Part shown: piece after piece, positions 5,926 through 25,824 of the stretch
How positions within the stretch are numbered: position 1 is the stretch's first letter
Layout: each line of letters starts with the position of its first letter
DNA from: Solirubrobacteraceae bacterium
GTDB taxonomy: Bacteria; Actinomycetota; Thermoleophilia; Solirubrobacterales; Solirubrobacteraceae
Length of the DNA stretch: 46,417 bases
NCBI GenBank assembly: GCA_017882375.1
Contig: JADGPP010000021.1
Span: forward strand, 1-46,417
Direction: 5' to 3'
Program-made: the position numbers and the translations under genes
Notes under the pieces: generated by a model
What the model was told of the DNA's origin: nothing
Databases searched by the model: none
The model's input: only the letters and a program-made list of their open reading frames with translations

Positions 5926-6909
5926 TTGGAGTTTGTAGATCCCGGCCTGCTGGACGTTGTGCCGTGGAGCTACGGCTACGCCCACTCGTGGGCACTCGCT
6001 GCGCTTCTGAACGACGAGCGCACTGCGGGTCCGATCCTCGAACTCCTGCGAGGGCTTCCCGGCCCGCTCCCGTATCGCGTCCTTGGTCCGGTTGAGCGCG
6101 AGCGCCGCGTGGGCTCCGCGCGAGCTGATCTTGCGTTTACGTTGCTCGACGCTGCTGGTGGGCAGTGGCAGATCGCGGCGGAGACGAAGGTCAACGACCC
6201 GTTCCGCGAAGAGCAGATGCTTGCCTACGGTCGTGCCGTCTATCAGCCCGTGCTCTACCTCCCTGGCCTCACGGGGCTCCTACTTGAGCCCACAGCGCAG
6301 ACGAGCGCGAGAGAGGTGCGCTTGCTCGGCGGCGATGTCATCGAGGCACTTGAGGGATTGGGCGTGGGGTTTGGGGCGCTCCTCGGCGGCTACCTCGACG
6401 CTGTGCGCGGCGAGACGCACCGGATGGCGCGCGCGTGCACCCATGCGCGCGACGAAACCGCCGAGCGACCGGGTCAGGGGCAGTGCGCCGAAGCAGACTT
6501 GATGGATGTCGCGTGGCTGGCCGAGACCTTTCGTGCGTTGCCGCACGCGTGCGTGGGCACCGGCGTCTCGCCAGACGCTTCGATGCGGGTCGAAGCTAAC
6601 GACCGCGGGTTCTTCTTCGACGGCTCATTCACCCGCGTCGCGCAGGACGGAGCGCTTTGGGTCGACGTCGTGGTCGACGTGCGCACGCATGCTCGCGGTG
6701 TCGCGATCAAGGCCGGCGAGCAGGATCTCGCCGGCGCGTGGGATCTCGCCGGTTCGCGGGCAGGCGGGCCCGGGAACGAGTGGCGACGCGCGTCGCGGCG
6801 ACTCGCAGGCAAGACCGCGACGGTGTGGAAGCGGCCGCTGGAGGGAGTGTGCGCCGAGCAGGCCGCCACCGTGGCTGTGCAGGCAGCTCGTTTCCTGCGC
6901 GAGCTCTAG
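5926..6909 (+). CDS. PD-(D/E)XK nuclease-like protein
   Basis: 327 residues. Residues 62-101 fit a PD-(D/E)XK core: D68 in SARADLAF, then E86 and K88 in AAETKVND, followed by a helix with REEQMLAYG. This pattern is seen in restriction-like nucleases. The C-terminal half (about 185-327) has a second strand-rich region of unknown type. The TTG start at 5926 is chosen because GAGGAAG lies about 7-13 bases upstream and the product begins at a sensible point before the fold. It is divergent from the XRE regulator and 224 bases from the next gene. Nuclease activity is inferred from motif spacing only. Confidence 0.65.
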   Translation: MEFVDPGLLDVVPWSYGYAHSWALAALLNDERTAGPILELLRGLPGPLPYRVLGPVERERRVGSARADLAFTLLDAAGGQWQIAAETKVNDPFREEQMLAYGRAVYQPVLYLPGLTGLLLEPTAQTSAREVRLLGGDVIEALEGLGVGFGALLGGYLDAVRGETHRMARACTHARDETAERPGQGQCAEADLMDVAWLAETFRALPHACVGTGVSPDASMRVEANDRGFFFDGSFTRVAQDGALWVDVVVDVRTHARGVAIKAGEQDLAGAWDLAGSRAGGPGNEWRRASRRLAGKTATVWKRPLEGVCAEQAATVAVQAARFLREL

Positions 6910-7133
6910 TACGTCGCCGAGTACGGCTGGGCTCGCGTTACTGACGCACTTTGTTCTGGACCGGCCCCGTATGTATGCACCGAACTTCCTTAGACCTCGA
7001 CGCACCAGATGTGCACTCCAGGTCCCTTGCGAAGTAAGATGTAACGGCCTCGAGGTTGCCTCGCCGAAAAGCGGGAGGCAGCAAAAACGCGGGGACACAC
7101 ACGCCGGGCTCACATCCCGGGGGAAGGATCAAT

Positions 7134-7655
7134 ATGAGTCAAACGTTCCGTGTGCCGGTCGGCGAAGTCGTCGAGCGCTGCCAGCATCACCTCACGCTCC
7201 TAGCGCCGGGGAGCGAGCCGGCAGCGATCACCGAGCACGCCATCTCGCTCGCCCTGAGCAGCAAGCGTACGCAGAAGGAGACTGAGCTGCTGCTCGGCGA
7301 CGTCCTGCGCGACTCGCGTCGCACGGTGTTGCGCTCGCAGGCGCGGCGCCTGCGGCTGGTCTCCGATCTTGGGCGTCTGGCCAGCGACGGTATCGCGACG
7401 GGCGGCCTGTCGGGGTTCGCCGACTACGAAACGCCCGAGCAGCGAGTGCTCGCACGAGAGTTCATCGCGCTCCTGCGAGCACGCGCCGAGGAGATCGGCG
7501 GAGCCACCCCACGAGTCCTCGCTGGCCTGCTCATTAGCGAGACCGAGTCCGAGACCGCGCAGGCCGTGGGAACGTCGCGCTCAACAGTCACGCGCGCACG
7601 TCGCGCTCTGCGGGCGTATGCCGCCGAGCAGGGTTATCAGCCGCTCGCCGCCTAG
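7134..7655 (+). CDS. Sigma-70-like / helix-turn-helix protein
   Basis: 173 residues from ATG at 7134, preceded by GGGGGAAGG. The open frame extends upstream to 7056, but that part is low-complexity and has no ribosome binding site. The middle is helical. The C-terminus (about 125-165) has a region-4-like helix-turn-helix with SETAQAVGTSRSTVTRARRA. It may be a divergent sigma factor or a DNA-binding adaptor. It lies 26 bases upstream of the GHKL ATPase, so the two form a likely operon. The 224-base spacer before it should carry the promoter. Confidence 0.6.
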   Translation: MSQTFRVPVGEVVERCQHHLTLLAPGSEPAAITEHAISLALSSKRTQKETELLLGDVLRDSRRTVLRSQARRLRLVSDLGRLASDGIATGGLSGFADYETPEQRVLAREFIALLRARAEEIGGATPRVLAGLLISETESETAQAVGTSRSTVTRARRALRAYAAEQGYQPLAA

Positions 7656-7681: not shown

Positions 7682-9475
7682 ATGAGCACCACCGTTAGAA
7701 CCAAATCGATCCCCGTGATCCTCTCCGGGCATGCGCTGCGTTCGCTGCGCGAGTCCGGCTACACGCTGCCCGCCGCGCTCGGGGAGGTGATCGACAACGC
7801 CATCGAGGCCGACGCCAACGAGATAGACGTCTACTTCGAAGAGGCACCCGAGGGCAAACGCAAGGCCCACATCGCGCGCATCGCGGTCGCCGACGACGGG
7901 GTCGGCATGGGATCAGACAGTGAGGAGCGAGACATCCTGCAGCACTATCTGCAGCTGGGCTACTCAACCCGTTACATGTCGACCACGACGATCGGAAAGT
8001 TCGGTGTCGGGGCTAAGCTCGGCGCCCTGTCCTTCGCACGCCGTATCGACGTGTGGAGCAGAACTAGCGGCGAGACAGACTGGCGACACGTCCACTTCGA
8101 CCTCGACGAGGCGGTCGAGGCCGAGGAGCGGGCGGAGCTCGTTCTAATCGATGAGCCCAACTCCGTCCCGGTGCCTGAGGAGCTCGAGTTCCTGCTGCCT
8201 GAGGCGTCTGGCACGCTCGTGCTGTGGTCGAAGGTCGATCGCCTCGAGCACGGCCGCTGGGCCGAGGACGCCAACAAGCTGCGGGTCGATGTCGAGAAGG
8301 AGCTCTCGCGCATCTTCCGTTACTTCCTGAACGGCGGCATCGAGATCCGGATCAACGAGCAGGCGCTCCTCGCGCACGACCCGCTGATGCTGATGGAGCG
8401 CAGCTGGAGCGACAAGATCCTCACCGAGGAGACCCGGAAGCAGGCGCGGGCCGAGGCAAAGAACGCCGAGGCCGACGGCGAGAAGCCAGCGAAATCCAAA
8501 GGGGGGCCAACCCACTTCCCCGCCACTGTCATGGGTAGAGCGAAGCTGAAAATTGGCGGACATACCGCCGACGTCACCGTCACGCTCTACCCCCCCGAGG
8601 TGACGCGCAAGCGAGGAATCGGCGGTGACAGCGTTGCGAAAGCGCTGCGGGTCCCTGAAAACGAGGGCCGGATCTCCTTCGTGCGAATGAACCGAGAGAT
8701 CAACTACGCACTAGTCCCCTACTCCTACCCAACTCAGGTCACTGAGGGAGACCGCTTCATCGGGATCGAGGTCGCCTTCACCCCCGAGCTCGACGACTAC
8801 TTTGGCGTGCGCAACGTCAAGCGGGGCGTCGAGCCGCACGGGGAGCTCCGCAAGCAGCTCAAAGAGAAGCTCGCGGCCTTCATCGTGGAGGCACGCGCCG
8901 AGCGCGAGCGACGCTGGGGCAAGGTCGCCCGGGAGAGCCAGGAGACCGAGGGCGAGCATCGCCCCGTCGTCGACGCGGTGGACCGCGCCAACAAGCGGCT
9001 GCCAAAGAGCCGCGCCAAGACCGAGGAGGAGCCGGACTCAAAGCAGCAGGCGCTTGAAGACCTCGCCAGCGACGTCGGCAAGGACGCAAGCAAAGCCGAG
9101 GAACGCAAGGAGTACATCGAGGGCATCCAGGACAAGGCGATCATCGTCGAGTCCGTCGACTACCCCGGTCAGAGCTTCATCGACATCCAGCACGTCGCCG
9201 GACAGGTGATCATCCGCCTCAATACCCGCCACCGCTTCTACAGGGAGCTCTACCAGCCGATCAAGGCGATCTCCGAGCAGGAGCCCGGCACCGTCTCGGG
9301 GGTAGAGGCCGTCAAGACAGCCCGCCGCACCCGGGAGGCACTCACGCTGCTGCTGATGGCCTACGGCAAGGCCGAGTCAATGAACGAGAACCCGCGTGCC
9401 GCCTACGGCGAGCTACGCAACTACTGGGGCACGTTCCTCGACGCGATCATGGGGGACGTCAAGGAGGTCATCTAG
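7682..9475 (+). CDS. GHKL (MORC/Hsp90/MutL-type) ATPase
   Basis: 597 residues. The Bergerat ATP-binding fold is clear: N-box EVIDNAIEA (35-43), G1 box DDGVGM (71-76) and G2 box GKFGVGAKLGA (105-115). These match the HATPase_c_3/MORC-type group rather than histidine kinases; no H-box or receiver domain follows. A transducer-like S5 region covers about 270-400 (SFVRMNREINYALVPYSYP). Residues 400-470 are highly charged and probably coiled-coil. Prokaryotic MORC-like ATPases are known from comparative genomics to occur with restriction and defence genes. AGAAAGGAACTGCC precedes the ATG. It is probably co-transcribed with the sigma-like gene. Confidence 0.85.
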   Translation: MSTTVRTKSIPVILSGHALRSLRESGYTLPAALGEVIDNAIEADANEIDVYFEEAPEGKRKAHIARIAVADDGVGMGSDSEERDILQHYLQLGYSTRYMSTTTIGKFGVGAKLGALSFARRIDVWSRTSGETDWRHVHFDLDEAVEAEERAELVLIDEPNSVPVPEELEFLLPEASGTLVLWSKVDRLEHGRWAEDANKLRVDVEKELSRIFRYFLNGGIEIRINEQALLAHDPLMLMERSWSDKILTEETRKQARAEAKNAEADGEKPAKSKGGPTHFPATVMGRAKLKIGGHTADVTVTLYPPEVTRKRGIGGDSVAKALRVPENEGRISFVRMNREINYALVPYSYPTQVTEGDRFIGIEVAFTPELDDYFGVRNVKRGVEPHGELRKQLKEKLAAFIVEARAERERRWGKVARESQETEGEHRPVVDAVDRANKRLPKSRAKTEEEPDSKQQALEDLASDVGKDASKAEERKEYIEGIQDKAIIVESVDYPGQSFIDIQHVAGQVIIRLNTRHRFYRELYQPIKAISEQEPGTVSGVEAVKTARRTREALTLLLMAYGKAESMNENPRAAYGELRNYWGTFLDAIMGDVKEVI

Positions 9476-9582: not shown

Positions 9583-11490
9583 TCAAGTCGCGCTCACCAC
9601 ACGCGCGAGCTGTAGCGCGGCATGCGCGACGCGGGCCTCAGCGCGCTGCTCGTCATCGAGGTCAGCGCCGGTCGCCTCGGCTTCGACCGTGACGACCTCC
9701 TCAACACTGTTGCGCCAGTGCCTACCGTTCACCGAGAAGAGTCCTGTGATTGGGTCGCGAGGCCCCGGTGCGATTGCCGCCCATCGTTCGCGCACCCAGT
9801 CTGCAATCTGCCCCTGATCAACTGCACCGTCCTCCCCCGAGCCTGCCGACCAGTCATCGACGGGCGCGAGCAGACAATAGGTCATGAACCCGGTGATTGC
9901 TCGTATTCGCGTCTTGCGGAAGTCGATGTTGCCGTCGGGGCGGATTCCCGCGCCGAGAAATGCCGAGTCAACGCCGGTCGTCTTCAGCGCGGGGACGAGG
10001 GTTGCGTTCAAGCGCTTAATGCAAGCCAGGAGTAGATCCGTTGGATTCTCGGACTCCTCGGGCCAGAGATACTCAGTCACTTGTTCGGGCCAGGACAGTA
10101 GCGCGTTGAGCGAGAAGATCATCGCCTTTTGGAACACGACCTGGAAGGCGAGGGGATGTGCCTCCTTGACCGGCTTCCAGGCACGGTCGACAGCCAGTGC
10201 CGGATCGTCGGTGTTGAGCTCGTCGATCAACGCACGGCGCTCGTCGCGGTTGAACGACAGCCACGGCTCGAGGTCGCTCGCTAGAACGCCAGCCTCTTCG
10301 AGTGCGTGCGTTAGCGCCGCGTACGGTGCGATCTCAGTGAGGGGCCGCACGATCCGGGGTCCGAAGCGTTCACGAAACGCCCCGCCGGCCGCGTCCACTG
10401 TGCTTGGCGATAGTTCGAACGGCCGCTCGTCGAGCTCGGCGCCGTCAATCTCGTCTAGTAGTCGCGGGCCGTCGAAACCGGGGACGCGCTCGAGGTCGAA
10501 CCGAGCAGTGAGCTTTTCCACGGCTTGCCTCGTCTTTTGGTAGTCGAGCGGGTCAGCTCGGGGCACGTCGGCGATGTGCTCGACAATGTCATGAAGGGTC
10601 ATCAGAGATGTGACGTAGGGGGTTTGGTCGAACTTTGCAGTACTCGCCCGCCAATCGATCAGACCGAGAGGGAGCCTTCCTGACTCCGACACGCGATCCG
10701 CGACGGTGCTTTTCTGAGGCGCGACTCCCGATGCAATTACCGCGCGCATCGATACACCGACCACATCGCGGTCGTCAAGCAAGAACAACCGGGTCCGCGG
10801 CACGGTTCGGGCGTGCTTGTTGATGTCGATGAAGATCTCCCTGCAGGCGCCAAGCACCGTAGTGCCTGAGGGTGCCCTGAACCCAGCGCGGGGGTCGATA
10901 ATGAGAAACAGCACCGATATTTGAGCGCGGTAGAGCTCGTCGCGCAGGCGGCCGGCCGCTTCGTTGAGGATCATCTGCATGGCGCGGAAGCGATGCTGGC
11001 CGTCGAGCACGACGGGCATCGTTTGATCGAGGTTCCATGAGAGATAGCCGACCGTTGGGGCATTGGGTAGGTGGGACAGGGCTATCGGCCCGATGCTCGT
11101 TCGTTCGAGATCCTCTTTGCTGGGCGGCGCGAGATCATCGGTGGGGTACTCTCGCGCGACGCGTCTCGGGTTCGTCGGGTCGGAGGGGAGCAGCACGACA
11201 GTAAGGGCGTTGAAGAACCGCAGTCGCTCGGGGCTACGAAGGTAGGGAACGATCTGCCTCTCGACGCGATCCATGTCCAGCTCGCGCTGAAAGAGCTCGT
11301 CCAGCATGATCGGGTTCGCGGGGTCTGCCGGGATCTGGCTCGGAAGCCTGAGCAGGCTGTTGAGCTGCCCGGCCTGCAGGCAGGTCGAGAAGAAGGGGAC
11401 TGCCGTCCCGTCGAAGTCGAAGCCGCCCTTGATGTAACTGATGCTCGGGCTCGAGTTGATGCCTGGAGGGCTGAGATCGAGTAGGCCCAC
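9583..11490 (-). CDS. DGQHR-domain protein, DndB-like, possible phosphorothioation regulator or sensor
   Basis: 635 residues. VVLDGQHRFRAMQ (161-173) is the signature of the DGQHR domain found in DndB and related ParB-like-fold proteins. The sequence around it (WNLDQTMPV before, FLIIDPRAGF and REIFIDINKHAR after) fits this family. In dnd loci DndB is a DNA-binding repressor and affects phosphorothioate (PT) frequency; SspE carries a similar DGQQR motif in its PT-sensing NTPase domain. The protein is clearly longer than typical DndB (about 360 residues), so the C-terminal ~300 residues are extra and of unknown role. GTG start 2 bases after the GIY-YIG gene stop, with AGCAGGA upstream. It is the last gene of the ssp-linked operon. 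Confidence 0.75.
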   Translation of the reverse strand: MGLLDLSPPGINSSPSISYIKGGFDFDGTAVPFFSTCLQAGQLNSLLRLPSQIPADPANPIMLDELFQRELDMDRVERQIVPYLRSPERLRFFNALTVVLLPSDPTNPRRVAREYPTDDLAPPSKEDLERTSIGPIALSHLPNAPTVGYLSWNLDQTMPVVLDGQHRFRAMQMILNEAAGRLRDELYRAQISVLFLIIDPRAGFRAPSGTTVLGACREIFIDINKHARTVPRTRLFLLDDRDVVGVSMRAVIASGVAPQKSTVADRVSESGRLPLGLIDWRASTAKFDQTPYVTSLMTLHDIVEHIADVPRADPLDYQKTRQAVEKLTARFDLERVPGFDGPRLLDEIDGAELDERPFELSPSTVDAAGGAFRERFGPRIVRPLTEIAPYAALTHALEEAGVLASDLEPWLSFNRDERRALIDELNTDDPALAVDRAWKPVKEAHPLAFQVVFQKAMIFSLNALLSWPEQVTEYLWPEESENPTDLLLACIKRLNATLVPALKTTGVDSAFLGAGIRPDGNIDFRKTRIRAITGFMTYCLLAPVDDWSAGSGEDGAVDQGQIADWVRERWAAIAPGPRDPITGLFSVNGRHWRNSVEEVVTVEAEATGADLDDEQRAEARVAHAALQLARVVSAT

Positions 11491-11492
11491 CG

Positions 11493-12200
11493 TTAGTCCT
11501 GCTTCTCGTTGAACATTGGCATCGCAAGGCGGATCAGTAGCGACTCGGCCGCCTTGAGCGTCTTGTCGAGCTCAGATCCGACGGCGAGCTGATCGTCAGG
11601 TGCCGGCGTATCGCCACCTTCGCCATCGTCGGCCTCCTGCGTGCCATCGGGTTCGTCTTCGTCCCCACCTGCCGCGGCGCCGACTTTAACGGGCGCTGCT
11701 ACCCAGGTGATCGCCAAGTCGAGCATGTCCACGGGGTTGGGCTTCGTGCTGCGCAGGCGCTCACGGAGATCCGATCTTCCATTGAGGTGTTCGTTGATCC
11801 TCTTGTGGAGGTTTAGGGCCATGCCGATGTATAGCGGCCGTTGTATCTGTGTGGCCAGGTCGGCGATCCAGACGCCGAGGTCGTCGCCCTGGTTGAGTCG
11901 ACTGTGGAGTATCAGTCGCTTCGCGTTGTGAATTTCGTGGCGTCGGTCGCTTACGGTGACCTCGTAGTACGGTCGAACGGTCTGCGTGCGAGGGCGGCCC
12001 ACGACAGCCAGGACATCGAGCAAGTGGCTTTGGATGGTCGGCTCGTCCGCTTTGACGAGTCGGCCGAGGTTGTGCGTCCAGACATAGAGCCCTGGGCGCT
12101 CAGGGATCAGCTGCCTTTGCACTTCGCCGTCCGAGCCCTGGTAGGCCTTAACGGTGACGATGGCGACATCTTCGGACGCTTGATGAGTGTCAAGAACCAC
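11493..12200 (-). CDS. GIY-YIG nuclease-like protein with a long internal insertion
   Basis: 235 residues. GLYVW (37-41) and PLYIGMALNLHKRINEHL (122-139) correspond to the GIY and YIG elements, with R134 at the catalytic arginine place. E219 in AAESLLIRLAMPMFN matches the metal-binding glutamate and the conserved Asn (N231). In ordinary GIY-YIG domains the two elements are about ten residues apart; here more than 80 residues intervene, and an acidic low-complexity insert (about 178-205) precedes the last helix. Nuclease activity is therefore plausible but unproven. GTG start at 12200, 127 bases after sspD and 2 bases before the DGQHR gene. The position suggests a role with DNA phosphorothioation, perhaps as its restriction partner. 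Confidence 0.65.
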   Translation of the reverse strand: MVLDTHQASEDVAIVTVKAYQGSDGEVQRQLIPERPGLYVWTHNLGRLVKADEPTIQSHLLDVLAVVGRPRTQTVRPYYEVTVSDRRHEIHNAKRLILHSRLNQGDDLGVWIADLATQIQRPLYIGMALNLHKRINEHLNGRSDLRERLRSTKPNPVDMLDLAITWVAAPVKVGAAAGGDEDEPDGTQEADDGEGGDTPAPDDQLAVGSELDKTLKAAESLLIRLAMPMFNEKQD

Positions 12201-12327
12201 GGTCAGCGTCTTTCTACAGGCAGTGCAGGAAAGGCGCGGAGGCGCCCTCCCATCCGCGTTCCAGTCGAGGGCTTCACTCTACAAACGAATAGTACGCAGG
12301 CTGCTGCGCACTCCCCGCCTGGGCGGC

Positions 12328-13149
12328 CTAGACGTGGCACATCGTGCACGCGTTGCTGTCGTCCTCGGCATCGAGCACGCCGCTCAGAACGTCGACGAGG
12401 GGTCGATTTGGCTGTGTCTTCTGCTCGCGGGCCATCGACTCTTCGTGTTGGCGGATGATCTCGTCTTTGCGGGCGATCAGCTGGCGTAGGCTCTCCCCCT
12501 GTGACCATGTGAAGTCGCGGCCGCTGGCCTTCGCTTCGAAGTTGACCTTGTCCTCGTACTCGATGGAGCGTTGGAATAGGTCGGGGTGCTCTTCGGCTAG
12601 ACGGACCCACTCGTACTTGCGCTGGAAGAAGCAGAAGAAGCAGCCGGAGCGGGTGCGCCATGTGTAGTAGCTAGGGAGCCCGACGCCGGCGTCCTCGAGG
12701 ATTTTCAGGATGTCGTCCTTGACGAGGCCGTCGGTCTTGAAGGGGAAGACGGGCTTGATGTTGGGCTTGCGTGAGATGTAGCCTTCGCGGTCCTCGTCGG
12801 CGCGGATGCCGATGTAGGTGGATGTGCGGTCCTCGCCGATCCAGGCCTCGAGCGGCTTGATCTTGAGGTTCTTGGTGCACCAGCGCATTTGCGGGGAGGG
12901 AAGTGCGCCGCCGAATACCCATAGCCAGTGGTCGAAGTCGCGGTCGGAGTTCAGTCGAGCGATCGGCTTGCCGAGGACGGTCTCAAGCCGGGTGAGGTAC
13001 TCGTAGGTCTCGGGCAACTCACGGCCGGTGTCGCAGAAGAAGTACTCCATCTCGGGTACGCGGTCGCGCATGTAGATCGCGAGGGCGGCGGAGTCCTTTC
13101 CCCCGGAGATGCCAAGGACGTGGCGTTCTGGTGTGGCGGTCTTGCTCAT
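12328..13149 (-). CDS. sspD: SspD, PAPS-reductase-family PP-loop protein of DNA phosphorothioation
   Basis: 273 residues. The PP-loop SGGKDS is at 15-20. C91 (RWCTKN) and C170/C173 (GCFFC) look like Fe-S cluster ligands, and a C-terminal CTMC (268-271) adds another pair. In PT systems this protein activates DNA with ATP and passes sulfur from the cysteine desulfurase to the backbone. The size is close to SspD. The ATGA overlap with sspC (13146-13149) indicates translational coupling. The alternative name DndC is less likely because DUF4007 (SspB) and the large SspC ATPase are present and DndD/DndE are not. Confidence 0.85.
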   Translation of the reverse strand: MSKTATPERHVLGISGGKDSAALAIYMRDRVPEMEYFFCDTGRELPETYEYLTRLETVLGKPIARLNSDRDFDHWLWVFGGALPSPQMRWCTKNLKIKPLEAWIGEDRTSTYIGIRADEDREGYISRKPNIKPVFPFKTDGLVKDDILKILEDAGVGLPSYYTWRTRSGCFFCFFQRKYEWVRLAEEHPDLFQRSIEYEDKVNFEAKASGRDFTWSQGESLRQLIARKDEIIRQHEESMAREQKTQPNRPLVDVLSGVLDAEDDSNACTMCHV

Positions 13150-16100
13150 CTGTTCGAAGCCTTTCGCTTGGGCTTGCTGGTCTCCTGCGGTATCGGCTCG
13201 CTCGCTGACAGGAGCCGGTTGGCGAGCACTCCGAGCAGGGCGCGTGATGCTTGCTGGGGGTTTAGACGTTGCTCGAGCTCGCTGAGGGCATTGTTGAGGA
13301 TGTCCCCGACGAGGTCCTCGGTGGCGGCGTCGACGCTCACGAGCTCAGCGGTCTCTGTGCCGTCGGGCGCTGTGAGGGTGACGCGTCGCGCGTCGAACGC
13401 TGTTCCGTGGAGGCTCTGCATCTGATGGTAGAGCAGCTCTAGGCGCTGGAACCATTGCGCGCGCTCAGCGACGAGCGCCTCGAACACGAGGAGGTCGTGA
13501 TCGGTCCAGCTGCCTGGGGGCTTGGAGCTGATCGTCATAGCGAGCGCTTCAAGCCAGTCATCATCGTCGAGGTTCTCATCGGCGGCGCTCATCAGGAATG
13601 AGCGCATCTTTGGCTCGATCACCTGCTTGAGCAGCCTTCGGCTGCGGCCGCGCAAATCCTCGCGGAGAAGGGCCTTTGAGCCAGCGACGGCGAAGCCTGC
13701 GTGCAGCAGGTCACCGATCTGCTCGAGCAAGAGCTGGTAGGCGGCTCCAAGCTCAGTGAGCGCGCGGCGCAAACGTTCTACGTACTCGGCGGCCTGCTTG
13801 TCTTCGCTTGCCTCTCCGTCGGCACGGAACGGCGCAAGCCCGCACGCAGTGGGAAGCGCAGTCAGAAGCAGCTCGTCAGGTTCGCGTGCGTCAAGGAGCG
13901 CCTTGCAGACAGCCTGCGCGGTGGGGCTCACACTCGTTGTGCCGCGCGTGTACTCGGGAAGCCCGGCGACGAAAGCAATTAGCGGCCGGACCACCGATAG
14001 GGTGGTTTCGTTTCTGGTTTGATTGCTCGAATGCGGTCGCTCGCCCGAGAGCGCGTCGCGCAGTTGCGCGAAGACGCTTGCCCGCAGACCGACGAATGAT
14101 GCTCGCTTGAGCGAGAAGCGCTCGGGCGTCTTGAGGAGGCGTTCGATGTGTGAGGCTTCGATAACCGGCTGGAAGCTTTGGTCCTGATAGAGGAACACGT
14201 CGTCGGCGCGGTACTGGAGCGCTGCCGAGAGCAGCACAGGGATCGCTCCGACCTTCATCCCAAACGGGGGTCCGACCAGCTCGCTGTAGAGCTCGGCGAT
14301 GTTCAGCGGCGTGTCGATCACGCCGTCGAGGCGGTCCATGAGATGGGTCCAGATGTCAGCGAGTTCGCTGTCCTTGGGCGGCGTTCCAAACCCCCAGGTC
14401 TCGCCGCGTTCGGCATGCAGCCCAGTGTGATGCAGGACGGCCTCATACATTGCGCGCTCGGGCCCGTAGCCGGTGATGCCAAGGCGCGGCTGAGGCTCGT
14501 TGGTGAACATCCGCTCGAGCAGGGTGCGGCGAGCCTTTGCTCCCTGGGAGGTGAGCTCACGGCGGTTGACCATCTCGTTGCGGATCACTGGGGTTCGCTG
14601 GTAGCGCGCATCGCAGAGCTCAGACAGTCGGCGTGAGAACTCGGCTGGACCTTGCGCGGGGGTGCGGCGGCCAGAGATGAACCAGTAGACACCCGCGCGG
14701 GCACCGCTAAACGCGTCCTCGATCTGCCGGGCGAGAGCCTGCTGGAGGGCAGCGACGCGGTGGCGGACCTCTCTGCGGGCGACTGGGTCGCGGTCGAGCT
14801 CTGGTGCTCCGGTGAGCACGGCGCTCGCCGCGGCGAAGTCCAGTGCGGCCTCCCGGACATCCTTGCCGTACGGTGACCAAACGACGATCAGCGGTCGGCC
14901 GCTGGCGGTCTGGGCCGGAGCCTTGGCTGGGGCACGCTTGTCAGCCAGTACGTGGAGCACGAGCCCATCGGGGCTGTCGGTGCTGACGTCGACGTCGCCG
15001 TCAGGTGCGGAATCTGCGTAGCGGGCCTCGAAGTAGCGGAGCACGTGGTTTCGCTGGCTGTGGCGCCGGGCGACCGCCGGGCGCAGGGGCTGTGCTTGGG
15101 CGAGGATCCCGAGGACGCTCTGCTCAGCAATGCCGCTGGTGGTGAGCTGCTCCCGCGCCGCCGCGATCTGTGCGGCGGTGTCGAAGTCCGACCCTTCCCA
15201 GACCCTGTACTCGCCCGCGAAGTCGCGGAAGGTGAGAACGCTTCGCTCGGAGAGTCGTTCAATCGCGGCCTGTATCTGGCTTCGCGCTTTTGCGCCAGCT
15301 CGGGGTCCGACCAGTGCCTGCTCGACGAGTGCTGCGCTGGCGACGAGCGATTGAGTCCCGCTGATCAGATTGAGTGTTCCGATCGTCTTTAGCACGCGAC
15401 GCTCGATATCGTCGATGCCCGAGGTCTGCTCGATGCGAGCGGCGATCTCACGGGCGCGCTCTCCGTCGGGTCCGGCTAGCGCAGTTGCCTCGCCGTCTTC
15501 GAAGAAATAGTCGTAAAGGTCGGCGAGTCGCATGAAGGGGATGTTGCCCGGGCCGAGTTCGTGCTTGGCGAGGAACGCGGGGAGCGCATGCGGTGCGTCA
15601 CTCGTTAGGAAGGCTACGAGTGACCGGTCGTGCTGGGCAAGCCTTGCTGCGAGAACAGGTAGCGCCAGGGCGACGGTGGGGTGCAGCGGGTAGGTTCCTG
15701 GCGAGGTGCCGGTGAGCGCGCCCGGTCCTTTGATCGCGAGTTTTCCCAGCGCTTCTTCGGCTAGCGCGGTGTCCTTGGTGATCGCCTGCAGATGCGAGGC
15801 CGTCCCGGTGAAGTGAAGCGCTTCGGTGAGGAGGCCAACGGCGTGGGCGCTGTCGGCGACGAAGGGGATGTCTTCGAAGCGTCCGTGGATCTTTCGCCAC
15901 TCTCGCCTGCGTATCTCGCGTGCGCCGAGGAGGTAGTCCTCGAATGCGAGATGCGCCAGCGTGAGGACGCCGCCGCGAAACGACGGGTTTGATGACAGGT
16001 GCTCGGCGAGCTGCTGTAGGACGTACAGGTCGCCGTCAGAGGTGCGGTCGGCGGCGTAGTCGAGGTTCTTGCCGAGCTCATCGACGATCACGAATACAGG

Positions 16101-16658
16101 CGCGTGGGCCTCAAGTTCGGCGAGTAGGTCGAAGATCACATCGGGCGAGACGTTCTTTTCGGCGGAGGCCTTACTGAGGCGGTGCACGACGTCGGGCTTG
16201 CGTCCTGGGCCGCTCCAATACCAGTTCGCGCCTTGGTGCAGGCCGCGCAGCAGGGCACGGGTGACGGGCTCGCGTTCGGCGACGACGGCTGCGCAGATGG
16301 CGCCGCGCTGCTCGATGCCGAGACGCCGGCGCTCGCGACTCAGGGTGTCAGAGAGCTGAGAATCGGCGCCGCGCAGAAGCTTCATCGCTACAGGGTGGGT
16401 GGGCTCCTGCTTTGAAGCGAGCACCGCGCAGAGTAGATGTGCGAAGGAGGACTTGCCGGCACCGTAGGGGCCAGTGATTGACCAGGCCCGTGTACGGGGT
16501 CCGTCTTGGAATGAGATGGCGATCCGGCGGAGCGCGTCGATGACGTGTGCGCCGGGGGAGTAGCCGCGTAGAACGTCTGGGTCACGCAGGTCGCTCTCCA
16601 AGCTGACAGCGCGGACTACCCGATGACGGACCTCGATGAGCTCGCTGAGATTGGTCAT
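13146..16658 (-). CDS. sspC: SspC, large P-loop ATPase of DNA phosphorothioation
   Basis: 1170 residues. Walker A GPYGAGKSS at 63-71 and Walker B VFVIVDELG at 188-196, in a context (GKNLDYAA, then LAHLAFEDY) typical of the large ATPases placed between the DUF4007 protein and the PAPS-reductase-like protein in ssp loci. The remaining ~900 residues are mostly helical with no other recognised domain. The stop overlaps the sspD start and the start overlaps the sspB stop, each by 4 bases. The assignment rests on gene order, size and the ATPase motifs. Confidence 0.85.
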   Translation of the reverse strand: MTNLSELIEVRHRVVRAVSLESDLRDPDVLRGYSPGAHVIDALRRIAISFQDGPRTRAWSITGPYGAGKSSFAHLLCAVLASKQEPTHPVAMKLLRGADSQLSDTLSRERRRLGIEQRGAICAAVVAEREPVTRALLRGLHQGANWYWSGPGRKPDVVHRLSKASAEKNVSPDVIFDLLAELEAHAPVFVIVDELGKNLDYAADRTSDGDLYVLQQLAEHLSSNPSFRGGVLTLAHLAFEDYLLGAREIRRREWRKIHGRFEDIPFVADSAHAVGLLTEALHFTGTASHLQAITKDTALAEEALGKLAIKGPGALTGTSPGTYPLHPTVALALPVLAARLAQHDRSLVAFLTSDAPHALPAFLAKHELGPGNIPFMRLADLYDYFFEDGEATALAGPDGERAREIAARIEQTSGIDDIERRVLKTIGTLNLISGTQSLVASAALVEQALVGPRAGAKARSQIQAAIERLSERSVLTFRDFAGEYRVWEGSDFDTAAQIAAAREQLTTSGIAEQSVLGILAQAQPLRPAVARRHSQRNHVLRYFEARYADSAPDGDVDVSTDSPDGLVLHVLADKRAPAKAPAQTASGRPLIVVWSPYGKDVREAALDFAAASAVLTGAPELDRDPVARREVRHRVAALQQALARQIEDAFSGARAGVYWFISGRRTPAQGPAEFSRRLSELCDARYQRTPVIRNEMVNRRELTSQGAKARRTLLERMFTNEPQPRLGITGYGPERAMYEAVLHHTGLHAERGETWGFGTPPKDSELADIWTHLMDRLDGVIDTPLNIAELYSELVGPPFGMKVGAIPVLLSAALQYRADDVFLYQDQSFQPVIEASHIERLLKTPERFSLKRASFVGLRASVFAQLRDALSGERPHSSNQTRNETTLSVVRPLIAFVAGLPEYTRGTTSVSPTAQAVCKALLDAREPDELLLTALPTACGLAPFRADGEASEDKQAAEYVERLRRALTELGAAYQLLLEQIGDLLHAGFAVAGSKALLREDLRGRSRRLLKQVIEPKMRSFLMSAADENLDDDDWLEALAMTISSKPPGSWTDHDLLVFEALVAERAQWFQRLELLYHQMQSLHGTAFDARRVTLTAPDGTETAELVSVDAATEDLVGDILNNALSELEQRLNPQQASRALLGVLANRLLSASEPIPQETSKPKRKASNR

Positions 16659-17626
16659 GCGATGCTGGCGACAGGGGCTTGTCGGCGGCTGTAGTAGTGC
16701 TCGAGGACACTCGCCTTCGCCGCATCGAGATCCTCGGGCAGGACGAGCTGGCGGCTGCCGGCAGCATGCGTGACGCCTAGGAGCTCATCGTGCGTATCCG
16801 TGTAGCGGGCGAGTGCATCGGCGAGTGCAGTCTCGGTGAGCGCAAACGCCCGTCCGGGTGCGCCCGGGTTTTGGGTGAGACCCGCCAAGCCGAGCAGCTT
16901 GGCGCTGCTATCGGTCATCGTTGCGTAGTCGAGGGCGGCGTAGGCGACGATCGCGTCAGGCAGGTGCCGCTTTGCGCCCACGTTGAGCACCCAGTGGCGC
17001 TTTGCGCCAGCGGCCGGGCGGATCAGGCCAAGCTCCAAGAACGGCGAGTCGACGGAGTCCTCGAGTAGGTCTCGGCCTTGTGTTCCGCCGCCGTACATCC
17101 GCAGTAGGCAGCGGACGTCCTTCTCGAGCGAGCTCTCGGCGACGTCGTCCCAGCCGCCTTGCTCGTCGCGGAAGCGGCAGAGCTCTTGAAGCAGAGCGTC
17201 GTCGCTGAATTCCGGTGAGCGCGAGCTGTTGAAGATCGCCCACCAGGCCGGCGCCTGGCAAGGCGAGCGCAGCAGCTGCCAGTGGAGCAGCCAAAGCGAG
17301 CCTGGATCCTCGAGGTATGGATCCCAGCCGCGCTCGGCGAGCAGCTGCTCGCCGAAGTCGGTTGGGCGGGCGTCGTAGAGGCGGAAGTTCTCTGCGCGGC
17401 GCTCGGGGCTCAGGATCTTGTAGGCAACGCACCAGTAGCGGATCGCACGGACCATGTTCTTGCCTACCCCGAGGACGGTTGTGGCGTCCTCGCGCAGGAA
17501 CACCGTGGAGTCCTCGCACGCACTGTCAAAGCCCTTCTTAAGCCATCCGTAGCGCGGGTGAAATGTCTCGTGGCGGGCGAAGGAGCCCAGGAGCTCAGGA
17601 TGCGAGGTCGTCGTCATGCTCGTCAT
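16655..17626 (-). CDS. sspB: SspB, DUF4007 protein of DNA phosphorothioation
   Basis: 323 residues. The N-terminus FARHETFHPRYGWLKKGFD (from residue 16) is the hallmark of DUF4007, the SspB family. SspB binds or nicks DNA in preparation for single-strand phosphorothioation. The sequence GVGKNMVRAIRYWC (about 53-66) continues the family pattern. The ATG at 17626 overlaps the sspA stop by 4 bases, and the gene end overlaps sspC by 4 bases. Length agrees with SspB homologues. Confidence 0.88.
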   Translation of the reverse strand: MTSMTTTSHPELLGSFARHETFHPRYGWLKKGFDSACEDSTVFLREDATTVLGVGKNMVRAIRYWCVAYKILSPERRAENFRLYDARPTDFGEQLLAERGWDPYLEDPGSLWLLHWQLLRSPCQAPAWWAIFNSSRSPEFSDDALLQELCRFRDEQGGWDDVAESSLEKDVRCLLRMYGGGTQGRDLLEDSVDSPFLELGLIRPAAGAKRHWVLNVGAKRHLPDAIVAYAALDYATMTDSSAKLLGLAGLTQNPGAPGRAFALTETALADALARYTDTHDELLGVTHAAGSRQLVLPEDLDAAKASVLEHYYSRRQAPVASIA

Positions 17627-18795
17627 CTTCCGACAGCTTCGACGGGCCGGGACACTCGGCGCAGGCGAGCGACGGCGGTGGCGAGCTCGTCAACGGCGGT
17701 ATCGATCTCCTCGGTACTCGTCGGGCGCCCGAAGCCAAAGCGCGCCGACTGCTCAGCCTCATCTGCGCTGAGCCCGATCGCGAGCAGAACACTGGAAGGC
17801 GTGGGTGTGGCCGCCGAGCATGCGCTCCCAGCGGAGAACGCCAGACCTTGGCAGTTGGCCATGAGCGCGTCAGCGTCGACTCCGGGGAAGCGCAGATTGA
17901 GGTTGCCCGGTAGACGGTCGACGGATGGGCCGTTGATCTCGACCTCCCCGATCGCCCCCTGGAGCTGTTCGAGGAAGCGACGGCTAAGAGTCGCGAGTCG
18001 TGGAGCCTCGGACGGTAGCTCGGCTTGCGCGATCTCGGCGGCCGCACCAAGCCCGACGATGCCCGGGACGTTGAGCGTCCCGCTGCGCAGACCGCGCTCG
18101 TGGCCGCCACCCGCGATGATCGGGCGCAGCCGGTGGCGGTGCTCCGGGCGGACGTAGAGCGCGCCCACCCCCTTCGGGGCGTAGAGCTTGTGTCCGCTGA
18201 GTGACAGCAGATCGATGCCGTCGCGGTCTACGTCGAGGTCGATCTTCCCGACGGCCTGCGCTGCGTCGGTGTGCAGGAGCGCGCCGCGCGCGTGCGCGAT
18301 CTCTGCGATAGCGCGTAGCGGGGGCAACGTGCCGATCTCGTTGTTAGCGGCTGCCGTGGTCACCATCAGGGTTCGGTCACTCACGAGGCCCTCGATCTCG
18401 GCTAGGTCGGGTTCGCCGTCCCGGTTCACGTTGAGGAACGTGATCTCGAAGCCGCGTTCAGCGAGAGTTCGTAGGGGATCGAGCACGGCTGGATGCTCGG
18501 TCGGGAGAGCGAGGACCTCGGTTCGTCCGTTTGCCGGCCCTGCGAAGCCTCCGAGGGCTAGGTTGTTGGCCTCCGTGGCGCCCGAGAGGAAGATGATGTC
18601 GCGCCGGTCGGCGGCGAGGATCCCCGCGACCTGCTCGCGCGCATGCTCTACGGCACTGGACGCCTCGATGCCGAACGCGTGGGCGCTCGCCGGGTTGCCG
18701 AAACGGCCCGTAAAATAGGGCAGCATTGCGCCTAGAACCCTCGGGTCTACGGGTGTTGTGGCCTGGTAGTCGAGGTAGATCGGGGTCACGGGCAC
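17623..18795 (-). CDS. sspA: SspA, cysteine desulfurase (IscS/NifS type)
   Basis: 390 residues, a PLP-dependent class V aminotransferase. K203 in SLSGHKLYAPKGVG is the PLP lysine, the NNEIG segment (151-155) contacts the cofactor, and C326 in SAGSACSA is the persulfide cysteine. It mobilises sulfur from L-cysteine for SspD. Its place as first gene of the four-gene coupled operon (GTG start 18795; stop overlapping sspB) marks it as the dedicated desulfurase rather than the housekeeping IscS. A second in-frame GTG lies two codons later. The integrase stop is only 66 bases upstream, so read-through from the element is possible. Confidence 0.9.
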   Translation of the reverse strand: MPVTPIYLDYQATTPVDPRVLGAMLPYFTGRFGNPASAHAFGIEASSAVEHAREQVAGILAADRRDIIFLSGATEANNLALGGFAGPANGRTEVLALPTEHPAVLDPLRTLAERGFEITFLNVNRDGEPDLAEIEGLVSDRTLMVTTAAANNEIGTLPPLRAIAEIAHARGALLHTDAAQAVGKIDLDVDRDGIDLLSLSGHKLYAPKGVGALYVRPEHRHRLRPIIAGGGHERGLRSGTLNVPGIVGLGAAAEIAQAELPSEAPRLATLSRRFLEQLQGAIGEVEINGPSVDRLPGNLNLRFPGVDADALMANCQGLAFSAGSACSAATPTPSSVLLAIGLSADEAEQSARFGFGRPTSTEEIDTAVDELATAVARLRRVSRPVEAVGR

Positions 18796-18861: not shown

Positions 18862-20346
18862 CTAGACGAAGCTAGCATCGTGCGCGGGGCAGTCTTGAAC
18901 CTCGCGTAGTAGGCGATCGAAGCTGCGCCCGTGATCACGCTGAATCCGCTGCTCGAGCTGTGCGTAGACATCGAGCGTCATTTTGCTGTCGGCGTGCCCG
19001 ACTTGGCTCATGACCCACTTCACATCGAAGTTGTTCGTGACGAGCGCGATCGAGATGTAGGTCCGCCGCAGACTATGCGGCGTCACGTGCGGCAGCGGCG
19101 GCAGCCCGCGGGCCAGGCTTTCGACGGTGGCGAGGGTGGCGGCGTCTCCGACGATCTTGGCGACGCGTTGGCGGCTCATGCGACCGCCACGCATATTCGG
19201 TACGGCGTAATCGTCGGGTCCAGTCGGCTGGCCGGCCCGCTGAAGGCGGTCGAGGTGCTCAATGAAGGTCTCGACAAGGTCGGGGGTCATTTGGACCTCG
19301 CGGATCCCGGTGCTTGTCTTCGCGCAGCGGATGTGGAAGCGGGCGCCGTCGGGGTCGTGGAGCCTCACGTCACGTAGCCGCAGGTCGCAGAGCTCGCTGG
19401 CGCGCACCCCGCACCGGGCGAGGATCTCAACCACAGCACGCCGGCCTTGGTAGACCCCGCCGCCGGTAGCGCCGAGCCGGGTGGCGTGAAAGCTCACGGT
19501 CGCCTTGGAGAGCCCGAGCTCGTTGGCGATGTCGCCGGTGCGCTGGCCGGCCGCGAGGCGCCGTGCGACGCGCGCGCGGCTCCCGTCCCCAGCCATCTCC
19601 GCCGACGGGATGGCGGGCAGGGCGTCCTGGGTTGCGACGGCTTGGATGAGTGCCGCGAGCTCATCGAGCTCCAGGAACGTGCGGCTGGGCTTCGGTACGC
19701 GCAGGCGCAGGCGCTTGCCGCGGGCGGGGTTCTGCGCGATCAGCTCGTCTGCGAGTGCCTCGTCGAGGATCACGGCGAGCAGGCTGATCGCCTTGCGGAT
19801 CGAGCTGGCCGAGAGCGGCACCTGCCGGCGTCCCCGCCGGTCGCGTAGGTCAGCTCCGGCGGCGAGCGCCCGACGTAGCTCTGCGGCCTCGCGTACCTTC
19901 TGCGCCTTGAACGCGAGGCACAGCCGCGCGTCGATCTCATCCAGCCGGTGGGTGGCGAAGAACGGCAGCAGGTGGCACCTGAGCAGCCAGCGGTAGCAGG
20001 CCTCGGTGTTGGCTGCGAGGGGCTTCTCGCCGATCGTGCCGTCGAGCTTTCCCCGCAGCCAGGTTGAGGCGTACTCGTGGAAGGTTGGGGTCTCGGTGGG
20101 CGCAGGTTCGGGGGCTGGTGGCTGCGGTGGGCGCCACACGCCTGCGCGCACACGGGCTTGGATGTTTCCCAGCTCGGTGCGGGCGCTGCGCTCCTCCCAG
20201 CCGCCGCCGCAGCCGCAGCGGCAGCCGGGCCGCTCGTGCAGGAACACGTCGTGACGCTCGCCGCCCACGTGGAAACGCAGCCGGTAGGAGCGGGTGCCGT
20301 CCCCGAGGGCGCGGGTCAAGATCGAACCGGTCGCCTCGCGGGCCAT
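18862..20346 (-). CDS. Tyrosine recombinase (integrase) with an inserted helix-turn-helix
   Basis: 494 residues from ATG at 20346. Catalytic residues: R315 (CGVRASELCDL), K343, H424 and R427 (HSLRRTY), H451 (GHADS) and Y461. The N-terminus has a Cys-rich CRCGCGGG segment and the SAM-like core-binding domain lies around 88-235. Between the core-binding and catalytic domains sits an extra block (about 250-295) with ELGLSKATVSFHATRLG, a LuxR/sigma-region-4-like helix-turn-helix not present in ordinary integrases. The frame is open to 20487, but that upstream part overlaps the excisionase gene. The ATG at 20346 is preferred because a 13-codon leader ends in TGATG exactly there. It integrates and, with the excisionase, excises the element. 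Confidence 0.85.
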   Translation of the reverse strand: MAREATGSILTRALGDGTRSYRLRFHVGGERHDVFLHERPGCRCGCGGGWEERSARTELGNIQARVRAGVWRPPQPPAPEPAPTETPTFHEYASTWLRGKLDGTIGEKPLAANTEACYRWLLRCHLLPFFATHRLDEIDARLCLAFKAQKVREAAELRRALAAGADLRDRRGRRQVPLSASSIRKAISLLAVILDEALADELIAQNPARGKRLRLRVPKPSRTFLELDELAALIQAVATQDALPAIPSAEMAGDGSRARVARRLAAGQRTGDIANELGLSKATVSFHATRLGATGGGVYQGRRAVVEILARCGVRASELCDLRLRDVRLHDPDGARFHIRCAKTSTGIREVQMTPDLVETFIEHLDRLQRAGQPTGPDDYAVPNMRGGRMSRQRVAKIVGDAATLATVESLARGLPPLPHVTPHSLRRTYISIALVTNNFDVKWVMSQVGHADSKMTLDVYAQLEQRIQRDHGRSFDRLLREVQDCPAHDASFV

Positions 20347-20387
20347 CAGCCCGCCCGCCCATGCTCGGGGATACGCTTGTCTTGCAT
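20346..20387 (-). CDS. Putative 13-residue leader peptide coupled to the integrase
   Basis: An ATG at 20387 is preceded by GGGAGG at a good distance (spacer TACCCCG) and opens MQDKRIPEHGRAG, whose TGA overlaps the integrase ATG as TGATG. Such a minicistron could deliver ribosomes to the integrase start, which lacks its own strong binding site. The short length means chance cannot be excluded. Confidence 0.35.
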   Translation of the reverse strand: MQDKRIPEHGRAG

Positions 20388-20461
20388 CGGGGTACCTCCC
20401 GGTGTCACGGCCGGGGGCGTTCGTGCGTCGCCCGGCCACTTTGGTCTCGGTGGCGACGACA

Positions 20462-20809
20462 CTAGCTCTCGTACGGCAGGAGATCAAGTCGTGCCGCGGG
20501 GTGCGAGCGCCGCCGTGCCGGGCCGCAGGATCGCTTGTCCGCCACCCTGCCCGCAGGGGCGCCGGCAGGGGGCGCGGCGAGGGCGCGCGTGGCGTGCTGG
20601 ACGTCGAAGCGCAGCCGGCCCTTCGGTCCCCCGAGGCGGATCGCGCCGAGCCGGCCGGCGTGCGCGTAGACCCAGCCGGGCTCCACGCCGAGGATCCGCG
20701 CGAGCTGTGCCGCGTCGAGGTAGCGTGCCGCGGGCTCGGCCCGCTGGCCGGCGGTCAGCTCGGCGACGCGGCTTGCGATCGCCTCGATGTCGGCCGGGTC
20801 GAGCCTCAC
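20462..20809 (-). CDS. Excisionase-like helix-turn-helix protein
   Basis: 115 residues from GTG at 20809, which overlaps the methyltransferase stop by 4 bases (GTGA). The core ARYLDAAQLARILGV EPGWVYAHAG (residues 28-52) is a MerR/excisionase-type winged helix (HTH_17-like), followed by IRLGGPKGRLRF as the wing. Its place directly before the integrase gene is that of a recombination directionality factor. The C-terminal ~30 residues are basic and low-complexity. Confidence 0.75.
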   Translation of the reverse strand: MRLDPADIEAIASRVAELTAGQRAEPAARYLDAAQLARILGVEPGWVYAHAGRLGAIRLGGPKGRLRFDVQHATRALAAPPAGAPAGRVADKRSCGPARRRSHPAARLDLLPYES

Positions 20810-25504: not shown

Positions 25505-25824
25505 AGGAGGTCACCAGCGGACATAGAGATGTCGCACAGCGAACACCCGCGGAAAACCCACTGTGAGCAGCGCAAGCCCGGTGATCCAGCCGAACCGAGG
25601 GGGTCTCGCAGACAGTCCCGCAAACGGTCTCGCAAGCGGTCCCACAGACGGTCTCGCAAACGGTCCTCGACGTTCATGGCCGTCCCCCTCGTGCCGCGCC
25701 CGTGCGCGACTGTGCAGGGCGAAACGGGCGACTGCGCGAAAGCGGCGGGGAACCGCAGACGGACCCAGTGAAGGCACCTGAAGCGGTCCCTGAGACGGTC
25801 CCTGAAACGGTCCTTGCGCGTCAT
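25501..25824 (-). CDS. Putative 107-residue protein with RDRL/RDRF repeats
   Basis: ATG 25824 overlaps the PP-loop gene stop (ATGA) and the TGA overlaps the coupling-ATPase ATG (ATGA), the same junction style as most of the operon. The product begins MTRKDRFRDRLRDRFR and has a second repeat block at about 53-74 (EDRLRDRLWDRLRDRL), both encoded by 12-bp tandem repeats in the same frame. It has six cysteines (17, 37, 71, 86, 94, 97). Function unknown; the repeats would form highly charged helices. A rival frame (ending at 25511) has a hydrophobic C-terminus and similar codon statistics, so which is translated is uncertain. Confidence 0.4.
   Translation of the reverse strand: MTRKDRFRDRLRDRFRCLHWVRLRFPAAFAQSPVSPCTVAHGRGTRGTAMNVEDRLRDRLWDRLRDRLRDCLRDPLGSAGSPGLRCSQWVFRGCSLCDISMSAGDLL
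25601..25669. repeat. 12-bp tandem repeat array 1
   Basis: Five to six diverged copies of a 12-bp unit close to CGGTCTCGCAAA, in phase from 25601 (units at 25601, 25613, 25625, 25637, 25649, 25661). The period is a multiple of three, so it is compatible with coding (RDRL on the minus strand) as well as with iteron-like protein binding. Confidence 0.8.
25772..25819. repeat. 12-bp tandem repeat array 2
   Basis: Three copies of a related unit (CGGTCCCTGAGA, CGGTCCCTGAAA, CGGTCCTTGCGC at 25784-25819) preceded by a partial copy. The spacing from array 1 keeps the same reading frame. It ends directly beside the start of the 107-residue frame. Confidence 0.75.

Follow-up and report, generated by a model that had tools for sequence, protein, structure and literature searches.

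A complete Ssp phosphorothioation operon, to judge from its profile matches, lies on a contig of a Solirubrobacteraceae bacterium (NCBI GenBank assembly GCA_017882375.1, contig JADGPP010000021.1), followed on the same strand by genes for a GIY-YIG family nuclease and for a DGQHR protein of the DndB superfamily. We refer to the whole stretch analysed, positions 1 to 46,417 of this contig, as the window; the host genome (Actinomycetota, 3.57 Mb) is 96% complete. The GIY-YIG and DGQHR genes recur as an adjacent, co-inherited pair at phosphorothioate (PT) loci. The interpretation that we consider moderately probable is a PT-based restriction-modification system in which the effector is a split two-protein cassette, a DGQHR sensor and a separate GIY-YIG nuclease. 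The two proteins may be an undescribed pair of "scissors" and "sensor" for which the sulfur tag distinguishes self from invader.

Read along the minus strand from position 18795 to 9583, the gene order is sspA, sspB, sspC, sspD, GIY-YIG, DGQHR. The modification genes (18795-12328) encode a cysteine desulfurase, SspA, that acts as sulfur donor (17623..18795; PADLOC SspA, 2.6e-140; Pfam Aminotran_5), the DUF4007 protein SspB (16655..17626; PADLOC SspB, 4.2e-104; PF13182, 290 bits), the large P-loop ATPase SspC (13146..16658; PADLOC SspC, E 0, 1114 bits) and the PAPS-reductase-like sulfur transferase SspD (12328..13149; PADLOC SspD, 6.6e-116; PF01507), and each of the three junctions between them is an overlap of 4 base pairs (bp). 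The tail of the operon is spaced more loosely, with 127 bp between sspD and the GIY-YIG gene (11493..12200, minus strand) and 2 bp between the stop codon of the latter and the start of the DGQHR gene (9583..11490, minus strand). The GIY-YIG protein has 235 amino acids (aa), with an insert between its GIY and YIG motifs; its start codon is uncertain because the frame is open to 12278. The DGQHR protein (635 aa; PF14072) is the proposed PT sensor and nucleoside triphosphatase (NTPase) partner of the nuclease. A sequence-only reading of this DNA had described the complete, overlapping sspABCD set with these two genes downstream, and the database matches bore out its coordinates and gene order.

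An SspD alignment was used to collect the 80 ssp loci whose SspD most resembles that of the window, and protein profiles were run on all of their frames. A GIY-YIG gene stood directly upstream of a DGQHR gene, on the same strand and overlapping it or a few bases away, at 14 of the 80 loci (L017, L030, L032, L034, L040, L043, L044, L049, L052, L055, L058, L059, L073 and L094), a proportion that cannot be extended to Ssp systems in general, the sample being biased to window-like SspD. Among the 68 loci whose downstream sequence extends for 3.5 kb or more, 12 carried the pair. The hosts included cyanobacteria, Actinomycetota, Acidobacteria, Planctomycetota, Desulfobacteraceae and the anammox bacterium Jettenia; the pair, whose co-occurrence with sspABCD the sequence-only reading had proposed to check elsewhere, recurs in several phyla, and the arrangement is well beyond chance. 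A shorter version of the pair was found at five of these loci (L032, L043, L044, L052 and L073), with DGQHR frames of 420-460 aa and GIY-YIG frames of 155-217 aa.

Some loci are minimal, made up of ssp genes and the pair. Neither SspE-like nor SspFGH-like genes lay within reach of 12 of the 14 surveyed pairs; the other two loci carry SspE (L044) and SspFGH-like genes (L073). At L142 and L145 the order is sspB-C-D, GIY-YIG, DGQHR, sspA, and nothing else recognised as an effector lies close by; at L107 and L004, both with short flanks, GIY-YIG and DGQHR precede sspA-B-C-D, with a DUF262 gene near the edge of L004. In the host of the window, PF03235 (DUF262) had no match in the 96%-complete genome. 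The SspFGH-like profiles were grown from L011, with a seed set chosen by gene order and FtsK annotation that was not checked against the published proteins; so defined, they matched 11-15 loci, with the window not among them, and found no SspFGH-like gene beside its pair.

The association also emerged when the DGQHR profile was run, with no ssp criterion, on the genomes of 396 Actinomycetota, 292 cyanobacteria and 317 acidobacteria. With the window and already known genomes left out, hits judged strong came from eight new genomes (G196, G512, G1031, G989, G972, G957, G903 and G1261), and all eight lay in PT loci: six adjoin ssp genes, and those of G957 and G903 adjoin dndC and dndD. The weakest of the eight (G512, E 6e-7) was counted only as one of four hits in its phylum; its 566-aa DGQHR protein is encoded beside sspD, without a GIY-YIG gene. 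Those weaker cyanobacterial hits (~540 aa) that were checked adjoin dndC/dndD, as cyanobacterial DndB would. On plasmids, seven of seven DGQHR matches fell in PT loci (six Ssp, one Dnd), two of them being near-identical pairs of records.

The pair also lies in Dnd loci. In Nonomuraea, GIY-YIG and DGQHR genes lie beside dndA, in addition to separate dndB, dndC, dndD and dndE. The other DndB-like gene that accompanies the pair in Dnd loci is a PADLOC-confirmed dndB at L006 and a 546-aa DGQHR gene beside dndC/dndD at L147. Since the pair is present in both Ssp and Dnd loci, it follows phosphorothioation and not Ssp alone, and since it coexists in Dnd loci with another DndB-like gene, it is not simply the Dnd regulator. 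A phage has it as well: on the contig IMGVR_UViG_3300033056_000008 (L163 7622-9197; also L166 8181-9665), a GIY-YIG gene overlaps or abuts a DndB-like DGQHR gene, with a dGTPase gene after them, an endolysin gene on the contig and a stand-alone DndC-like gene elsewhere (PADLOC DndC, 1e-74). The phage GIY-YIG homologue passes the Pfam cut-off (32.2 vs 22.6 bits), and the phage DGQHR protein has a DndB match (5.7e-43) as well as a match to GmrSD_N/DUF262 (6.4e-6) that stays under the curated cut-off. The sequence-only reading had suggested that the two genes could be a new sensor/effector module of the Ssp system; the recurrence and co-inheritance of the pair at PT loci support the module, but the pair, which also occurs in Dnd loci and in a phage, is not specific to Ssp.

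Pairwise protein distances of GIY-YIG and DGQHR were closely correlated over 18 ssp loci (r = 0.95), and the correlations with SspD distances were lower (r = 0.54 for GIY-YIG, r = 0.51 for DGQHR); tree distances are non-independent, and the Mantel p-values should not be over-read. This contrast indicates that the two genes move as a unit between ssp backbones. A GIY-YIG gene accompanied 23 of 30 PT-linked DGQHR genes (with the split frame at L009 counted in), and no long-type GIY-YIG gene without DGQHR was seen in the surveyed PT loci; DGQHR is thus the more constant partner. At L009 (9329-10024, a Trichormus plasmid) the GIY-YIG frame is split by an in-frame stop and the DGQHR gene downstream is intact; the very similar GIY-YIG copy of L030 (Nostoc) is open. 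In an acidobacterium (L162, 9523-12462), a PLD nuclease gene stands directly upstream of DGQHR in place of GIY-YIG, possibly a nuclease swap.

Profiles were needed to see these relationships. A single-sequence search for DGQHR relatives in 146 genomes of the family and 396 of the phylum found none but that of the window, a single-sequence viral scan gave no match, and tblastn of the GIY-YIG protein in plasmids gave none, where profiles later found GIY-YIG genes; all that single sequences brought up were distant matches on plasmids. PADLOC, Pfam, NCBIfam and PHROGs held no specific family for the pair.

The GIY-YIG protein of the window is likely an active nuclease, judging from its conserved residues and its predicted fold. 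Its Pfam match falls below the curated cut-off (17.9 vs 22.6 bits), but homologues and the modelled fold agree, which confirms the identity of the domain. All 17 long-type homologues compared keep Y39, W41, P122, Y124, G126, R134, H138 and E219 unchanged; those of the first alignment share 16-22% identity with the window protein. The active site of the restriction enzyme Eco29kI consists of Y49, Y76, R104, H108 and E142, mutants of which lose activity (PMC1952068); the Tyr-Tyr-Arg-His-Glu set of the window family and the spacing of its R-x3-H motif match Eco29kI, and N154 of Eco29kI has no clear conserved counterpart in the family. The AlphaFold model is of modest confidence (predicted local distance difference test, pLDDT, 59). 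Its fold matched the UvrC GIY-YIG domain (Z 8.8 over 88 residues, root-mean-square deviation 2.6 Å), T4 EndoII (8.2), Eco29kI (6.1) and Hpy188I (2.8), and all structural matches above Z 2.1 were GIY-YIG nucleases.

The DGQHR protein exceeds the Pfam DndB cut-off (PF14072, 39.9 vs 29.1 bits), misses that of the NCBIfam DGQHR domain (37.2 vs 58.85) and misses the DndB equivalog TIGR03233 by far (16.5 vs 328 bits). Compared as profiles, its family and DndB align with 99.0% probability (E 3.9e-18). A QR pair, the DGQHR pentapeptide (residues 163-167 of the window protein) and an FxxxN motif are invariant in 29 of 29 homologues, and these three motifs are common to DGQHR and DUF262/GmrS domains (PMC4619093). 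PT is read in SspE by Y30 and Q31, which adjoin R32 (PMC9646914), and in DndI the substitution R87A in the DGQQR motif abolishes ATP hydrolysis (PMC11662687). By analogy of motif order, we infer that the QR pair of DGQHR proteins may do the PT-reading job that it does in SspE; the DndB alignment has a QR pair too. Two DGQHR homologues gave weak DUF262/GmrSD_N matches (E 0.006, and 6.4e-6 for the phage protein), both below the curated cut-off, and a PDB sequence search with the DGQHR profile returned nothing meaningful.

SspABCD places phosphorothioates in host DNA, as is established for the family. In the mechanism that we propose, SspABCD would mark host DNA with PT, and the DGQHR protein would bind or scan DNA, read its PT status near the QR pair and switch by nucleotide hydrolysis. 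This switch would position or release the separately encoded GIY-YIG nuclease, which would then nick or cut DNA without the proper PT context and so might act against phage. PT could either activate the nuclease, as in the SspE type, or release it from self DNA, as in the DndI type. The DGQHR protein comes from the DndB/ParB-sulfiredoxin superfamily, and the DUF262 domains of SspE and DndI are related to that superfamily by motif. On this reading the cassette would do the work of SspE or DndI with different components.

Several observations weigh against a sensor and nuclease acting together in this way. The DGQHR family profile and the SspE profile gave no alignment with hhalign (0.9%), and this negative used real SspE, since the locus-grown SspE alignment matches SspE structures (E 1e-115). 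The same result upholds the earlier distinction of the pair from SspE, but because the profiles do not align, it is short motifs and a weak bridging protein that connect DGQHR with SspE. The AlphaFold model of the DGQHR protein is poor (pLDDT 50) and unusable for structure comparison. Seven of the 30 PT-linked DGQHR genes stand without a GIY-YIG gene, and DGQHR therefore plays some part on its own; the helicase, GHKL and PLD genes present at many of these loci are possible effectors; and canonical DndB, described as a transcriptional regulator, carries the same motifs.

This last point leads to the strongest of the alternatives, one that we nevertheless consider unlikely: that the DGQHR protein, like DndB, is a regulator holding down ssp expression or the density of PT, while the GIY-YIG protein acts by itself as a back-up or suicide nuclease and just travels along. 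The match of the DGQHR profile to DndB and the PT loci with DGQHR and no GIY-YIG fit this account, as do, in Rakesh et al. (2024; PMC10853773), the description of DndB as a transcriptional regulator and the placing of stand-alone URI/GIY-YIG nucleases, with a proposed suicide action, on the margins of Dnd loci. A second DndB-like gene beside the pair at L006 and L147 makes a regulatory role unlikely there, the DndB equivalog cut-off is missed by a wide margin, and most ssp loci have no DGQHR gene at all. The two genes, moreover, stay adjacent and co-diverge, unlike a loose edge gene.

We give a still lower probability to the idea that the pair serves modification itself, with a UvrC-like GIY-YIG nickase and a ParB-like protein opening or repairing the backbone during PT insertion or turnover. 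UvrC is indeed the closest fold, and a pair found with both Ssp and Dnd follows the mark and not one machinery, but most ssp loci lack the pair, and modification proceeds without it in the Ssp and Dnd systems that have been published (PMC8092258, PMC11662687).

Convergent with the ssp operon lies a plus-strand module whose possible membership the sequence-only reading had raised: a sigma-factor or helix-turn-helix (HTH)-like gene (7056..7655) directly upstream of a gene for a GHKL (MutL/MORC-like) ATPase (7682..9475; HATPase_c_3, 66.6 bits). The suggestion gained support: two other phyla have sigma-like/GHKL pairs next to ssp, and in cyanobacteria a GHKL relative is encoded downstream of the GIY-YIG and DGQHR genes. 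Along nearly its full length the window GHKL protein aligns (~26% identity, E down to 2.8e-32) with GHKL proteins encoded after a helicase on ssp plasmids of cyanobacteria, and the GIY-YIG and DGQHR genes are present on two of these plasmids as well. Homologues of the window GHKL protein adjoin ssp in cyanobacteria and at L025, L052 and L076 (Eisenbacteria, an acidobacterium and Pseudomonas, respectively). The window protein matches the GHKL ATPase domain itself and falls below the curated cut-off for MzaB of the MZA system (75 vs 850 bits). Sigma-like homologues occurred only at L025 and L076, each in front of an ssp-adjacent GHKL gene that scores closely, and at both loci a short (~148 aa) GIY-YIG gene lies between the two (L025 2049-4852, L076 2056-4779); L052 (10841-12990) also combines GHKL with a short GIY-YIG. 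Such a short GIY-YIG and GHKL unit beside ssp is possibly another PT effector; the short GIY-YIG gene is missing from the module in the window. Upstream of the sigma-like gene is an uncharacterised gene of uncertain membership (5926..6909, plus strand), without a family match, in which a weak PD-(D/E)XK-nuclease-like pattern (RADLAF..AAETKV) was noted by eye.

That this module, perhaps with the gene at 5926-6909, is the real effector and the pair only regulates or assists is improbable in our view, slightly more so than a role in modification. GHKL homologues are present at many ssp loci with a helicase and a PLD nuclease (GHKL plus helicase at 13 of the 80), and at L025 and L076 with the sigma-like and short GIY-YIG genes, but the minimal loci L142 and L145 have the pair and no GHKL, helicase or PLD gene nearby. 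The sigma-like and GHKL genes are probably a separate second PT-defence module and not part of the pair. GIY-YIG domains are common in homing endonucleases, and the GIY-YIG gene could in principle be a homing-type parasite inserted by chance; the survey contradicts this very improbable reading, which we rejected, as the gene keeps the same position, strand and partner across several phyla and co-diverges with DGQHR.

Other gene sets recurred at the surveyed loci. A helicase, GHKL ATPase and PLD nuclease combination was seen with or without the GIY-YIG and DGQHR pair (L017, L030, L033, L034, L040, L045, L051, L058 and others), its helicase showing weak similarity to PbeA. A different GHKL protein of ~800 aa is encoded directly after sspD in many proteobacteria and is held by 24 loci in all (including L062, L071, L075-L078, L088, L090-L093 and L096). 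Genes annotated as "DNA phosphorothioation-associated putative methyltransferase" flank cyanobacterial ssp loci on the opposite strand (L008 213-2327, L009 1693-3792).

The ssp operon of the window looks like cargo of an integrative element, because a tyrosine recombinase gene (18862-20487) lies directly upstream of sspA. The recombinase has an unusual architecture, with a LuxR-type HTH match (residues 307-338) just before the integrase match. Within 399 genomes of the host class, DUF4007 was found in the window alone. Elsewhere the window contains two defence-like genes, one that joins an Mrr-type nuclease domain to NB-ARC and TPR (666-3047) and one for a SIR2-domain protein (3538-5118), and, in the element and distant from sspD, a gene for a second PAPS-reductase/PP-loop-like protein (25821-26837) with an SGGNDSTVL motif noted by eye.

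Among known systems, SspABCD-SspE has the same modification genes, and SspE shares related motifs (QR, DGQ[H/Q]R, FxxxN) and a nuclease; SspE is, however, a single DUF262-DUF1524 PT-sensing HNH nickase, where the window has two genes, one GIY-YIG and one DndB-like DGQHR. IscS-DndBCDE-DndI likewise joins an NTPase-type sensor to a nickase with PT as the self mark, and pairs of the window type also occur in Dnd loci, but DndI is one fused DUF262-HNH protein (a DGQQR sensor plus HNH). SspFGH, an alternative effector for the SspABCD modification, comprises three genes and includes a Walker A ATPase and an FtsK-like protein; nothing similar was found in the window. DndB (TIGR03233) resembles the DGQHR protein through the DGQHR superfamily, with a profile match over the N-terminal part; it has ~360 aa, whereas the window protein has a long extra C-terminal region. 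The URI/GIY-YIG nucleases near Dnd genes (Rakesh et al. 2024) share the link of GIY-YIG to PT modification; they are presented as locus-edge back-ups to Dnd, and the accessible portion of that paper mentions neither a DGQHR partner nor an Ssp locus. No description of the pair was found in the open-licence full-text literature, which does not cover preprints, so that an unseen description is possible.

Wang et al. (2021; PMC8092258) reported that 2,211 of 2,678 sspBCD loci have neither SspE nor SspFGH and asked about other restriction partners. A co-inherited nuclease-plus-sensor pair, present at 14 of the 80 surveyed ssp loci and sometimes alone, is a direct, testable candidate partner for such effector-less loci. 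Tentatively, and with less confidence than we place in the split cassette itself, we suggest that the pair may be a portable PT reader-cutter that tracks the sulfur mark itself and not a single modification machinery. It would then serve Ssp and Dnd loci alike, be put to use by one phage or more, and count among the missing effectors of the many sspBCD loci without SspE or SspFGH. If so, its presence in Dnd loci would mean that one effector can serve either PT machinery, and the division into a sensor and a cutter would allow PT reading and DNA cleavage to be studied apart.

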